This document shows, one piece after another, positions 26,045 through 33,118 of a DNA stretch of 64,000 bases. A program made the translations under genes and the position numbers. The DNA comes from Paracoccaceae bacterium (GTDB lineage Bacteria > Pseudomonadota > Alphaproteobacteria > Rhodobacterales > Rhodobacteraceae). Where the stretch lies: positions 24,241 through 88,240 of the forward strand of contig PWZT01000054.1 in NCBI GenBank assembly GCA_003567315.1, given 5' to 3'. Under the pieces are notes generated by a model. That model ran no database searches, was not told the DNA's origin, and worked only from the letters and a program-made list of their open reading frames with translations. Positions within the stretch are counted from its first letter, which is position 1. Every line of letters starts with the position of its first letter.

Positions 26045-28918
26045 TCAGGACGCGAGACGCAACACAACATCACGTCCGCGGCGCGTGTAGCGCAACTCAG
26101 AGTCGCCAATCGCGGTCACTTGTCCGCCATCAAGTCGTTCGCCAACCCGAACTGTCACCACGCGTCCATTGGACAGCCGCACCAGCGCCCGACGGTTCGA
26201 GGAGGTGCCCATAACCCCGATCAGGTTGACCTGGCGCAGGTTGATCGCGCGGCTCTGGGTCGCTTCGCGTGCGACTGATGCCGAGGTGGGAATGGACGGG
26301 ACCGCCGCCGCGCGCGCAGTCTGAACCGGCTGCGAAGGCGTTGCGCTCTGCTGGTCGCTCTGCGCCGCTCGCAGCGTGCGCTGCACCACAGCCGCGAACT
26401 GGCTCGGGCGCGTGTCCGGTCGCAGCGAGGCCGGAACAGCAAGCTCCGAGGCATCCGCGAAACTGTCCTCGTCCTCCGCTGCCATCCCGGCTGCCTCGGA
26501 GAGTTCGTCGGGACGCGTGACCGGGCGCAGAGCCGACAAGGCAACACCGCCCGGCGGCGGTGTCGTCAGGCTGGCCTGATCGTCCTCTTCCGTGGCTTGC
26601 GCGGGCGGGGCCGCGTCCGCTTCGGGCGGTGCATCTGTGTCAGGTGTCTGGGGCAGCGTTTGCTCCGCCTCCGGAGCCAGCCCAGCGGGCCGTTCGGGTG
26701 GGGTGGCCGCAGGCGTTCCGCTGGAAACTTCTATGTCCAGAGCAGATTCGTCAAAAGGATCGGGTTCGGCAGGCGCGATCTCGTCTTCTGCCACAGCCTG
26801 CTCTGCAATGGTCTCAGGCAATTCCTCAACCGGCTCGGGCTCTGGCAGTGCGGCGGCCTCGCGCAGTGCCTCCAGTTGCGCTTCGGACAGAAGACCCTCC
26901 GGGCGTTGCGGGGGCACAGCAGCTGGCGTGCCCGGGGTTACCAGGATTTCCAGCGCGGCTTCTGACTCGGGAATATCTCCGCTCGGCAAGGTTTCTTCGG
27001 GCCCCTCGGCGATCTCGGCGTCCTCTTGTGCTGCAAGGTCAGCGGCGAGTTCCGAGCGGGTCGGCGGGAGCGGCTCGGTTCCGAAGGGGGCAGGGCTCTC
27101 GGGAGAAGATGGAAGCGTCGCCGCCTCTTGTGGCTGTATGAGGGCGACAGACCGAAGTGCTGCAAGGCGCCCCGCGTTTGCATCGGCCTGCGCTGTCGGT
27201 GTATCGGCGCCGGGCTCTTGCGTGGGCTCTGATGGCGCCAGTTCGGCATCGGAAAGGTCCAGCGGCGGCTGTTGCGCAGCATCTTCGAGTCCGAGCGCTG
27301 CTTCGACCTCGTCCTGAGCAGCAAGCGAAGCCTCGGGTTCGGCCTCGGCGGGTGCGGCAATCTCGGCCTCTGCGGGCGCTGCACTGTCCTCCGCGATCTG
27401 TTCGGGCGCGGGCTGGGTAACGTAGAAGAACGCCGCCCAGATCCCAACGGCAACAAGGAGCATTGCGATGCCCCCCAGAACAAGCAGCGCGCGCCTGTTA
27501 CCTGTGGTCGCTGGCATGTCTTGGTTGCGCGCGCCGAAAATCGTCAGGCGTTCGGCTTCCTTGGGATCCGGCCCGCGATTGCCATGCTCGCGCAGCATCG
27601 TGAGCGGGTCTTTGCGTTGCTTTGGATCGGCAGCGGTATCAGCGGGTGACGCAAGTGTTGTGGCCGGAGCTTTTTTAGCAGATTTGGAGGTTAGGGCCGC
27701 TTCCGGCGCAGCGGGTGCAGACTTCGCGTCGGTGGCTGACAGCTTATTTCGCGCCGCAGCCGCCTTGCCGGACGCGGCTTTCGCCTTGTTGAAAAGCTTC
27801 GTTGCAGGCTGGCTCGACCTGGCCTTCACGCGCGCGAGCAGCGTTGTCAGCGGATTGCTGCGCGCGGCTACCTCTTTCGCAACGCGAGTTGCTGTCTCTG
27901 ACGGTTTTGCGCTCGCTCGGCGCGAGCGGAATGTCGCGGGTGTTGTATCCCCCTCGCTTTCAGCTTCGGGCGCATTAGCCTTGCCCTGCTGTTTTGGCAT
28001 GGCAGATTGCTTGATTGCCGCTGCCTTTTCCTTCGCGCCAGTGAGCCGCGCGAGAAGTGCGTTCTTGCGGTCCTGCGCGGCCTTGGCCGCCGCCTGTTTT
28101 GCGCCTGTCGGCTTCTTAACGCTCTCGGGTTTGTCAGCGCTTTCGGGCTTGTCAGCGCTTTCGGGCTTGGCCTTGTCCGGGGTCGAGACTGACGGCGCAG
28201 GGTCTGCCTTCTGTTCGGTCGGGGCAGGGGCCTCTTCCGTTTCTATCTCCGATTTCGTGCCAGCCGCATTGGGTGATGGCGGCGCGTCAATCGTTTGATC
28301 CTGCCCTTTTTCGGCCACGAAGACAGGCTCTACCGCTGGATCGGGCGTTACCTCAGACGGGTCGGCAGAAACGAAGCCCACCTCGCGCACCAGATCGCGC
28401 TGCAGGGCGCAGACGGACGGATCGTCGAAAATCTCGCGCGCGGTGCGCGTGGTACAGAAGACAGGCTCCATCGGGTAGCGCGCCTTTGCGGGCGCTGCGA
28501 CCGCACTGACCGGGTTGAACCCATAGCCACGCGCGAATTCCTCGGCTTCGAGGATGGTTTCGCGCGCTACCACTGCCATGCAGGCGTGGCCGTTCTCCTC
28601 GAACCAGTCGATTTCAAGCTCTTCTACCGGATAGGGGGTGCGGCCTTCGAGTTGCGCGCGCAGCATCGCGTCCTGTTCTGCGGGACTACCGGAGCCAAGT
28701 TCCAGATCACAATAAAGGATCTGGTCGTCGGGAACTACAATCTTTGTGATGATCCGGTCCGGCTCCAACCGTGCGGCCGCTTCGGCCATTGCGCGCATGT
28801 CGCTGTCAAGCGTCGGGCTGTCCGGGGCGACCGCATCAACACGCAACCACCCCGAGGCATCACGGTGCCAGAGGGTGATCCCGTCATCGGTAAGACCAAG
28901 TGCGAAATTGGGTTTCAT
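26045..28918 (-). CDS. Large bitopic protein with PilM/GspL-like N-terminus and PilP/GspC-like C-terminus
   Basis: A 957-residue protein. The first 170 residues (ALGLTDDGITLWHRDASGW, IVVPDDQILYCDLELG, RTPYPVEELEIDW) look like the actin-like cytoplasmic fold of PilM/GspL. A long charged Ala/Lys/Glu region follows, with a tandem KPESAD repeat near residues 250-266. One membrane helix lies at about 478-500 (LLVLGGIAMLLVAVGIW). An Ala/Pro/Glu-rich periplasmic linker carries two related blocks (SGTPAATPPERPAGL and TPGTPAAVPPQRPEGL). The last 65 residues (LIGVMGTSSNRRALVRLSNG, VRVGERLDGGQVTAIGDSEL) resemble the PilP/GspC homology region. No pilus genes adjoin it. Names such as translation initiation factor would come only from low-complexity similarity. 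Confidence 0.75.
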   Translation of the reverse strand: MKPNFALGLTDDGITLWHRDASGWLRVDAVAPDSPTLDSDMRAMAEAAARLEPDRIITKIVVPDDQILYCDLELGSGSPAEQDAMLRAQLEGRTPYPVEELEIDWFEENGHACMAVVARETILEAEEFARGYGFNPVSAVAAPAKARYPMEPVFCTTRTAREIFDDPSVCALQRDLVREVGFVSADPSEVTPDPAVEPVFVAEKGQDQTIDAPPSPNAAGTKSEIETEEAPAPTEQKADPAPSVSTPDKAKPESADKPESADKPESVKKPTGAKQAAAKAAQDRKNALLARLTGAKEKAAAIKQSAMPKQQGKANAPEAESEGDTTPATFRSRRASAKPSETATRVAKEVAARSNPLTTLLARVKARSSQPATKLFNKAKAASGKAAAARNKLSATDAKSAPAAPEAALTSKSAKKAPATTLASPADTAADPKQRKDPLTMLREHGNRGPDPKEAERLTIFGARNQDMPATTGNRRALLVLGGIAMLLVAVGIWAAFFYVTQPAPEQIAEDSAAPAEAEIAAPAEAEPEASLAAQDEVEAALGLEDAAQQPPLDLSDAELAPSEPTQEPGADTPTAQADANAGRLAALRSVALIQPQEAATLPSSPESPAPFGTEPLPPTRSELAADLAAQEDAEIAEGPEETLPSGDIPESEAALEILVTPGTPAAVPPQRPEGLLSEAQLEALREAAALPEPEPVEELPETIAEQAVAEDEIAPAEPDPFDESALDIEVSSGTPAATPPERPAGLAPEAEQTLPQTPDTDAPPEADAAPPAQATEEDDQASLTTPPPGGVALSALRPVTRPDELSEAAGMAAEDEDSFADASELAVPASLRPDTRPSQFAAVVQRTLRAAQSDQQSATPSQPVQTARAAAVPSIPTSASVAREATQSRAINLRQVNLIGVMGTSSNRRALVRLSNGRVVTVRVGERLDGGQVTAIGDSELRYTRRGRDVVLRLAS

Positions 28919-30499: not shown

Positions 30500-31753
30500 T
30501 CATGCGCTTCCACGCAACTGCTCAAGCAGCGCACGAGATGGCTGACCTGTCACGGACATTCCCCTCGACTGCTGATATGATCGGATCGCCGCCTCGGAAT
30601 TCGGCCCGATCACCCCATCCACACCTTGCGTGTGGAACCCTGCCCGTGTCAGCAAACGTTGCAACTCCTGCCGGTCGGCCAGACGCAGACCAAAACGGTC
30701 GGGCTGGAAGTTGCCCTGGATCGGGCCGCGCCCACGCAGCCTGTCAGAAAGATGCCCGACACCAATGACATAGAACTCGGAGTTGTTGTAACGCATGAGC
30801 GCGGTGAAGTTGCGGAAGATCACGAAGGCAGGCCCGCGCGGCCCATCAGGCAGCAAGAGTGAGGATGGGCCGTGATCCGCAACCGGACCCCCATTCACAT
30901 CGCGCACGCCCAAGCCGCTCCATTCCGAGACCGCCCGCGTGCTCCCCCGCCCCGCAAGCGACGTGTCGAACCCCTCTGGCAGCCGCACCTCGACGCCCCA
31001 GGGCTGCCCACGACGCCAGCCCATGCGAGACAGGTAATTCGCAGCCGAGGCCAGCGCATCGCTCGGGTCGTCCGCCCAGATGTCGCGCCGCCCATTGCCT
31101 GTGAAATCAACGGCGTATTCCTGATAGGTCGTCGGGATGAATTGCGTATGCCCCATCGCGCCCGCCCAGGAGCCGCGCAGATTGGCGAGGGTGGTGTCCC
31201 CGCGCTGCAGGATACGAAGTGCCGCAAGCAACTGGCTTTCGAAAAACGCCCCGCGCCGCCCATCAAAGGCGAGCGTCGCGAGGGCCGAGATGGCCGGAAT
31301 ATCGCCCCGCTCGGTGCCATAGCGCGACTCCAGCCCCCAGACCGCTGTAATGACCTCGGCTTCGACACCATAGCGCGACTCGATCGCGCGCAGCGTGTCG
31401 CTGTGACGCGCCTGTGCCGCGCGCCCTGCGGAAATGCGTTCGTCGGTGACAGCGATGGCGGTAATGTAGTCCTCGAAGGTGCGCGTGAATTCCGCCTGCC
31501 TGCGGTCGCGCGCGACAACATCGGGCAGGAAACCCGCGCCCTCAAGCGCCGGGTCCAGAATATTCTGCGCAATTCCGGCGCTCCGCGCGCGCGCGCGAAA
31601 CTCCGCTTTCCACGCATCGAAGGCTGGATTGGGCTCGGGGCGCATCGGTGACTGACGCGCGGAGGGCGCGCTCATCGGTGCACCGCCTCCCATGCAGGCC
31701 GAAAGGGACAGGGCCATGAGCCCGCATATGCTGGAACGTCGTGAAAGATGCAT
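30500..31753 (-). CDS. Lytic murein transglycosylase, MltB type, lipoprotein (copy 1)
   Basis: A 417-residue MltB-family enzyme that cleaves peptidoglycan with 1,6-anhydro product formation. The signal LMALSLSACMGGG ends in a lipobox with the cysteine at about residue 20. The SLT_2 domain has the catalytic glutamate in TAVWGLESRYGTERG, followed by GRRGAFFESQLLAALRIL and GSWAGAMGHTQFIPTTY. The last 60 residues form a peptidoglycan-binding domain (GFHTQGVDGVIGPNSEAAI). It is head-to-head with a paralogue at 31895, separated by about 140 bases. Confidence 0.93.
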   Translation of the reverse strand: MHLSRRSSICGLMALSLSACMGGGAPMSAPSARQSPMRPEPNPAFDAWKAEFRARARSAGIAQNILDPALEGAGFLPDVVARDRRQAEFTRTFEDYITAIAVTDERISAGRAAQARHSDTLRAIESRYGVEAEVITAVWGLESRYGTERGDIPAISALATLAFDGRRGAFFESQLLAALRILQRGDTTLANLRGSWAGAMGHTQFIPTTYQEYAVDFTGNGRRDIWADDPSDALASAANYLSRMGWRRGQPWGVEVRLPEGFDTSLAGRGSTRAVSEWSGLGVRDVNGGPVADHGPSSLLLPDGPRGPAFVIFRNFTALMRYNNSEFYVIGVGHLSDRLRGRGPIQGNFQPDRFGLRLADRQELQRLLTRAGFHTQGVDGVIGPNSEAAIRSYQQSRGMSVTGQPSRALLEQLRGSA

Positions 31754-31894: not shown

Positions 31895-33118
31895 GTGATA
31901 TTCGTGCGCCTTTTGATCCTGATACTCTGCCTCGTCCTGCCGGGGTGCCTCGGCGCCAACACATCGGTATCGCCACGCCCCGAGCCGCGCCCTGCCCAGG
32001 CTGAGCAGGGCGATTTCAGCGCGTGGCTTGACGGGTTTGCCAGTCGCGCGCAGGCACAAGGCATTTCGAGCGCCACGCTCGCGCAGGCACGGCCGCATAT
32101 GCGTTATCGTCCCGAGACGATCCGCCTCGATCAGCGCCAGAGCGAATTTGGCGCGCGGGTCTGGGAGTATCTGGACAACGCGGTCACCACGGGACGAATC
32201 GCGCAGGGTCAATCCTTGATGCGCCAGCATTCGGGGGTGCTCTCGCGGATCGAGCAGCGCTATGGCGTACCGCCTGAAATCGTGGTCGCGATATGGGGGA
32301 TCGAGACCTCCTATGGCGCAGATCGCGGGCGTGTCCCTCTGCTCGCGACGCTGGCCACGCTCGCGCGGGACGGGCGGCGCGGCGCGTTCTTCGAGGACCA
32401 GCTCATCGATGCCCTGAAAATCGTGCAGTCGGGCGAGGTCAGCGCGGGTGATCTGATCGGTTCCTGGGCCGGGGCGTTCGGGCATACGCAGTTCATGCCG
32501 TCGAGCTTTCTGGCCTATGCCGTTGATTTCACCGGGAATGGAAAGCGAGATTTCTGGAGTGGCGATCCGAGTGACGCGCTTGCCTCTGCGGCCAACTATC
32601 TGGCGCGCCGTGGCTGGCAACGCGGCCAGCCATGGGCCGTCGAAGTTATTCTGCCATCCGGGTTCGACCTTGGCCTTACCGGGCAGCAACGCAGCGCATC
32701 GGCTTGGGCGCGGGCTGGTCTGCAGACGACGACAGGGGCCGAAATACCGGGAGGCGACGCGCGGCTGATCCTGCCGGGTGGCGCGCGCGGGCCAGCCTTT
32801 CTCGCCTATGGGAATTACGATGTTCTGAAAGAATACAATATCTCGGATGCCTATGTGCTGGCCTTGGGCCATCTGTCCGACAGGTTGCGCGGGGCCGGGG
32901 CGCTGCGCGGGCAATGGCCCCGGAGTGACCGCGCCCTGACCCTTTCCGAGCGCAAGGAAGTGCAGCGCCGGCTCGTGGCGCTCGGGTTCGATACGGCGGG
33001 GATTGACGGGCGGCATGGGCCAGCGACGATCGCGGCGGTTCAGGGATGGCAACGCCAGCAGGGCCTGCCCCCGGATGGTTATATCAATGCCGAGCTTCTG
33101 GCGCGTCTGCGGCGTTGA
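31895..33118 (+). CDS. Lytic murein transglycosylase, MltB type, lipoprotein (copy 2)
   Basis: A 407-residue paralogue of the divergent neighbour. The lipoprotein signal is LLILILCLVLPGC. The catalytic glutamate lies in VAIWGIETSYGADRG, with GRRGAFFEDQLIDALKIV and GSWAGAFGHTQFMPSSF, then a peptidoglycan-binding domain (LGFDTAGIDGRHGPATIAA). The start is a GTG: 31895 (AGGAG about 12 bases upstream) or 31904 (GGGAG eight bases upstream); the latter gives the tidier signal peptide. The 3' end overlaps the convergent DUF6525 gene by 35 bases. Confidence 0.92.
   Translation: MIFVRLLILILCLVLPGCLGANTSVSPRPEPRPAQAEQGDFSAWLDGFASRAQAQGISSATLAQARPHMRYRPETIRLDQRQSEFGARVWEYLDNAVTTGRIAQGQSLMRQHSGVLSRIEQRYGVPPEIVVAIWGIETSYGADRGRVPLLATLATLARDGRRGAFFEDQLIDALKIVQSGEVSAGDLIGSWAGAFGHTQFMPSSFLAYAVDFTGNGKRDFWSGDPSDALASAANYLARRGWQRGQPWAVEVILPSGFDLGLTGQQRSASAWARAGLQTTTGAEIPGGDARLILPGGARGPAFLAYGNYDVLKEYNISDAYVLALGHLSDRLRGAGALRGQWPRSDRALTLSERKEVQRRLVALGFDTAGIDGRHGPATIAAVQGWQRQQGLPPDGYINAELLARLRR

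Follow-up and report, generated by a model that had tools for sequence, protein, structure and literature searches.

A window of 64 kb from a Paracoccaceae bacterium (contig PWZT01000054.1; the window is the whole stretch of 64,000 nucleotides that was analysed) encodes on its minus strand, at positions 26045-28918, a protein that fuses the first and the last link of the GspL/PilM-GspC/PilP chain and that is kept in genomes where secretin, motor and N0 domain were not found. GspL and PilM, and GspC and PilP, are regarded as dedicated parts of pili or of the type II secretion system (T2SS), linked by GspM, PilN and PilO and docked on a secretin. The open frame begins at an ATG and runs for 957 codons plus a stop, and its extent was taken from the frame and from family searches. 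The three-part architecture, with a head, a membrane helix and a tail on one chain, is near certain as a prediction from structural models, and by its sequence matches this head-tail protein is a family trait and core gene of the Rhodobacteraceae, not a peculiarity of the window. We give about an even chance that this core protein acts as a trans-envelope tether working without a pilus or a secretin, with partners and a task that we infer. What is new is that the two ends are fused, that the gene belongs to the core genome and that the protein seems not to depend on the usual machine; the fold families of both ends are known.

Predicted head, helix and tail on one chain

The head (residues 1-186; 28361-28918, on the minus strand like all parts of the gene given below) gave a high-confidence AlphaFold2 model whose best fold matches in the PDB were GspL and PilM, pointing to a reduced actin-like fold of the GspL/PilM type, and the original prediction, made from the letters of the stretch alone, had likewise claimed a PilM/GspL-like N-terminus. 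In the fold search, 150 residues of the model were aligned with a PilM chain of 352. For the identity of the modelled head this search was decisive where sequence searches against the PDB gave chance level: phmmer with the full protein returned two matches, both at E 2, and the head profile returned chance-level matches, mostly CENP-S, at E 0.22 and worse. No Pfam family was matched by the head piece of the window protein, and with E allowed up to 10, PilM_2 was matched by 5 of 68 head members, the best of them at 3.4e-4.

The model of the tail (residues 895-956; 26051-26236) best matched GspC and PilP, with a fold match of 10.0 for this kind compared to 3.6 for other folds, which suggests the beta fold shared by PilP and the GspC homology region (HR) and bears out the claim that the last ~65 residues are PilP/GspC-like. 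PilP was also the sole Pfam match of the whole protein (19.2 bits, below the cut-off of 25.6); the tail piece alone scored 23.4 bits, likewise under the cut-off, and all 62 tail pieces matched PilP within an E limit of 10, the best at 2.1e-6. A second, short protein consisting of a tail only was seen at L114:6189-6578 (own genome, contig C51), L111:5734-6330, L112:5588-6022 and L113:5021-5362. The L111 protein is 199 amino acids long and, judged by eye, contains a hydrophobic segment; its HR-type tail aligns at 44% identity over 72 columns (E 1.6e-14), and the own-genome copy lies near a gene that we take to resemble a LuxI-type synthase. Among the matches listed, 95 of the 196 panel genomes described below have two tail matches, and four of the second matches were read.

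A single membrane helix between head and tail, flanked by long linkers of low complexity, was predicted from hydropathy (residues 477-495; 27434-27490), as had been expected. One hydropathy segment is present in 70 of 73 family proteins, and its head flank carries more positive charge in all 73, predicting a topology with the head inside and the tail outside; the proposal that one chain may span from cytoplasm to periplasm agrees with this prediction. The predicted cytoplasmic linker (residues 187-476; 27491-28360) is rich in Ala, Lys and Pro and has a conserved stretch ahead of the helix (family consensus EAExLTxFGAR). Its coding part also contains a tandem repeat of 18 bases in 2.8 copies (28120-28169). 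The predicted periplasmic linker (residues 496-888; 26255-27433) is rich in Pro, Ala and Glu, with 15% Pro, 22% Ala, 13% Glu and zero Lys over residues 501-880, and a motif scan placed two RPxxRP motifs within it (residues 798-803, 26510-26527; residues 833-838, 26405-26422). Outer linkers carry RPxxRP in 72 of 73 proteins, at a mean of 2.12 compared to 0.02 in shuffled linkers. The motif also occurs at codon 28, behind a lipobox-like start (by eye), of window gene 31895-33118 (+), which together with 30500-31753 (-) forms a pair of divergent neighbours encoding lytic transglycosylases with SLT_2 plus PG_binding_1 domains; RPxxRP may be a motif common to envelope proteins.

Spread in the Rhodobacteraceae and relation to T2SS loci

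A search of 5.8 billion proteins, in which the 7991 best-sharing candidates were scored, gave 269 homologues at E<=1e-3. Names among the 120 homologues listed include 'type IV pilus biogenesis protein PilP' and 'Translation initiation factor 2', and among the open-licence PMC titles listed, none was found to describe this protein. Relatives are encoded on at least 511 stretches of the GTDB contig collection, the best 80 of which were kept as a locus set; the record titles of these 80 name Rhodobacteraceae genera or, in the case of some metagenome bins, wider groups. A single open frame encodes both head and tail at 72 of the 80 loci, and at the other eight, where the tail was not found, the available DNA stops 0.5 to 2.6 kb past the start.

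A panel of 196 genomes was drawn from the order and comprised 87 genera of a single family; of these genomes, the head profile matched 194 and the tail profile 195, G185 being the tail miss. The two genomes missed by the head profile, G110 and G141, each proved on inspection to encode a diverged head together with a tail in a single frame (885 amino acids at locus L106 and 614 at L105, respectively); in G141 there is also a secretin frame of GspD size, ~10 kb or less from a strong T2SSE match. Split frames were seen in G102, where the frame stops at the contig end, in G127, where it contains a run of N, and in G162 and G182, where head and tail are on two overlapping frames, which suggests a frameshift within the linker. 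Among the matches listed, G111, G149 and G155 have head and tail on separate contigs, and the tail matches of G116 and G137 were flagged with one internal stop. In a sample of 144 genomes of the class, the head was matched in five; three of these belong to the own family, the others being G298 and G247.

The G298 match (L117) hits PilN and adjoins a secretin with an N0 domain, identifying it as a PilN-bearing GspL of a T2SS locus, and the G247 match (L104), read from frames, was taken for GspL by eye. Over 126 columns, the head profile and the G298 GspL share 27% identity (E 2.1e-5), and the tail profile aligned with the HR gene two genes on at 38% over 40 columns (E 1.8e-6); a mismatched control alignment gave E 0.4. 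Genome G080 has a T2SS locus comprising a PilN-bearing GspL, a secretin with N0 and a weakly HR-like gene (tail profile E 3.5e-4; no Pfam family matched), and encodes the head-tail protein besides, so that in G080 the latter is not a T2SS replacement. These sequence comparisons lead us to infer that the protein descended from gspL and gspC-like parts of T2SS type and that GspM and the PilN-type middle were lost.

Persistence without a secretin match

Secretin (PF00263) was matched in 188 of the 196 genomes, and the eight without a match (G022, G054, G055, G139, G163, G168, G172 and G185) represent four genera, with five belonging to g7. The head profile matches all eight, and the tail profile seven of them. 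For T2SSE, three of the eight score above the cut-off, G185 falls below it and four give no match. GspD-N0 (PF21305), the STN domain and PilN (PF05137) were each matched in 0 of 9 genomes (the eight plus the own genome, whose assembly is about 90% complete), with control genomes positive, and GspC-style docking thus has no recognisable partner in these genomes. Within g7, tail scores are similar whether or not a secretin was matched (E 1.7e-22 to 5.4e-31 in the five genomes with a secretin match; of the five lacking one, four gave E 1.2e-20 to 5.5e-24 and G185 gave no tail match). In the own genome, a single secretin match and a single T2SSE match sit together on contig C14, and the gene of the head-tail protein is on a different contig; the secretin matches T2SS-T3SS_pil_N and BON, not N0. 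From its domains, we take the C14 locus to be Tad. No secretin or T2SSE gene was found in the window itself, where not every other gene was named.

The original prediction had further proposed that the protein could stand in for the assembly bridge known from pili and type II secretion. Its retention in genomes without a secretin match, four of them also without a T2SSE match, and the lack of GspD-N0, STN and PilN matches leave this proposal unsupported, and the check for co-occurrence with secretins disfavours a strict link. As relatives without a secretin match keep the protein, it likely serves another purpose, as a link between the inside of the cell and the outer envelope. In such a tether, the head would lie on the cytoplasmic side of the inner membrane and bind a cytoplasmic partner, and the linker of ~390 residues would be long enough for the tail to reach the outer membrane or the peptidoglycan. 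Docking of the tail would use an edge strand, in the manner of GspC, and its target would be an envelope protein lacking a recognisable GspD-N0 or STN domain, with the RPxxRP motifs as a putative second docking site. T2SS-type gspL and gspC-like parts would thereby have been taken over for a general envelope task, for example positioning or linkage of the inner and outer membranes. A bolder version, to which we give somewhat less than even weight, is a family-wide envelope machine free of secretin and pilus, in which a T2SS platform was captured as a core one-chain GspL-GspC bridge with new partners at both ends.

Several observations weigh against a tether of this kind. A secretin is present in the great majority of the panel, which would allow a facultative role alongside the Tad secretin, and the eight genomes without one are all multi-contig drafts (99-100% complete), mostly of a single genus, so that a secretin may have been overlooked. 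G185 keeps the head with the tail unmatched, the head profile aligned weakly with the GspL of G080 (E 0.05), and the absence of N0, STN and PilN relies on Pfam profiles, which a divergent copy might escape. A partner was identified for neither head nor tail, and MetZ, the neighbour at most loci, offers no functional hint.

Gene neighbourhood, alternative roles and comparison with known systems

Of 20 window genes or frames tested, MetZ alone recurs strongly near the gene, being found upstream and in the same orientation in 68 of the 80 loci; the septation gene that comes next in the window is present in 13 of 80. None of the neighbour clusters found in at least 8 loci resembles an envelope machine when judged by eye, and none supplies a functional partner. 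Following PMC9275681, the upstream regions were scanned for CenR sites; 5% of loci exceeded the 95th percentile of the controls, which is the chance level. A divergent SIMPL-like neighbour was counted in 2 of 80 loci by a pattern that is probably too narrow and in 33 loci by a by-eye cluster, and neither count was used.

These results bear on two alternatives. The protein could serve mainly to sense or regulate envelope growth or division; here an FtsA/PilM-like head would signal and the tail and RPxxRP motifs would read the peptidoglycan or outer membrane; the scarcity of the septation gene and the chance-level CenR sites speak against such a regulator, and we consider it unlikely, if the best placed of the alternatives. 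A little less probable is a bridge of an unrecognised secretion or filament machine with a channel and motor unrelated to secretins and T2SSE, given that conserved operon partners are lacking apart from the recurrence of MetZ and that no machine-like cluster was seen. An accessory bridge of the Tad pilus, with the head bound to the Tad ATPase or TadZ and the tail to the Tad secretin, is improbable to a slightly greater degree. The shared locus of the single secretin and single T2SSE of the own genome and the prevalence of secretins favour it, and PilMNOP homologues are described as lacking or very rare beside Tad genes in PMC6668835, a gap that a one-chain substitute encoded elsewhere would fill. 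Against it stand the retention of head and tail in secretin-less genomes, the domains of the own secretin, which do not include N0, and the separate contigs of the gene and the Tad-like locus. A chance joining of two common small folds unrelated to T2SS or pili would accommodate the sequence matches under curated cut-offs and the window head piece without a Pfam family, but is very improbable, as head and tail independently best match the same kind of machine, the tail by a wide score difference, and both align to genes of one alphaproteobacterial T2SS locus.

Compared to known systems, the head-tail protein resembles GspL in its predicted head fold and lone membrane helix with the head inside, but has no PilN-type domain past the helix, where the two alphaproteobacterial GspL examined carry PilN, ends in an HR-type tail and is encoded outside any T2SS locus. 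With GspC it would share a layout of membrane helix, Pro-rich linker and HR domain, and PMC3169554 describes this GspC layout and docking by strand addition to the N0 domain of GspD; unlike GspC, it has a folded cytoplasmic head in place of a short stretch, a linker of ~390 residues, nothing beyond the HR, and no detected N0 partner. The same paper gives a precedent for fused platform proteins, the PilO-PilP fusion of Pseudomonas putida, which joins another protein pair within a pilus system. The head resembles part of PilM, whose structures are ~2 times as long, and the PilN partner of PilM was not found; the tail resembles the PilP fold with a profile score under the PilP cut-off, and forms the C terminus of a 957-residue chain, whereas PilP is a lipoprotein anchored at its own N terminus. 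Both counterparts are here on one predicted membrane-spanning chain, which, unlike what is expected of a Tad pilus component, is also kept in genomes without a secretin match. TonB/TolA-type tethers likewise have an inner-membrane anchor, a long periplasmic stretch and a small C-terminal domain, with different folds and without the large cytoplasmic head.

The head-tail protein presents a directly testable putative envelope function in the Rhodobacteraceae, a large, well-studied and genetically tractable family, and would provide a natural minimal bridge for asking what HR domains bind other than secretins.
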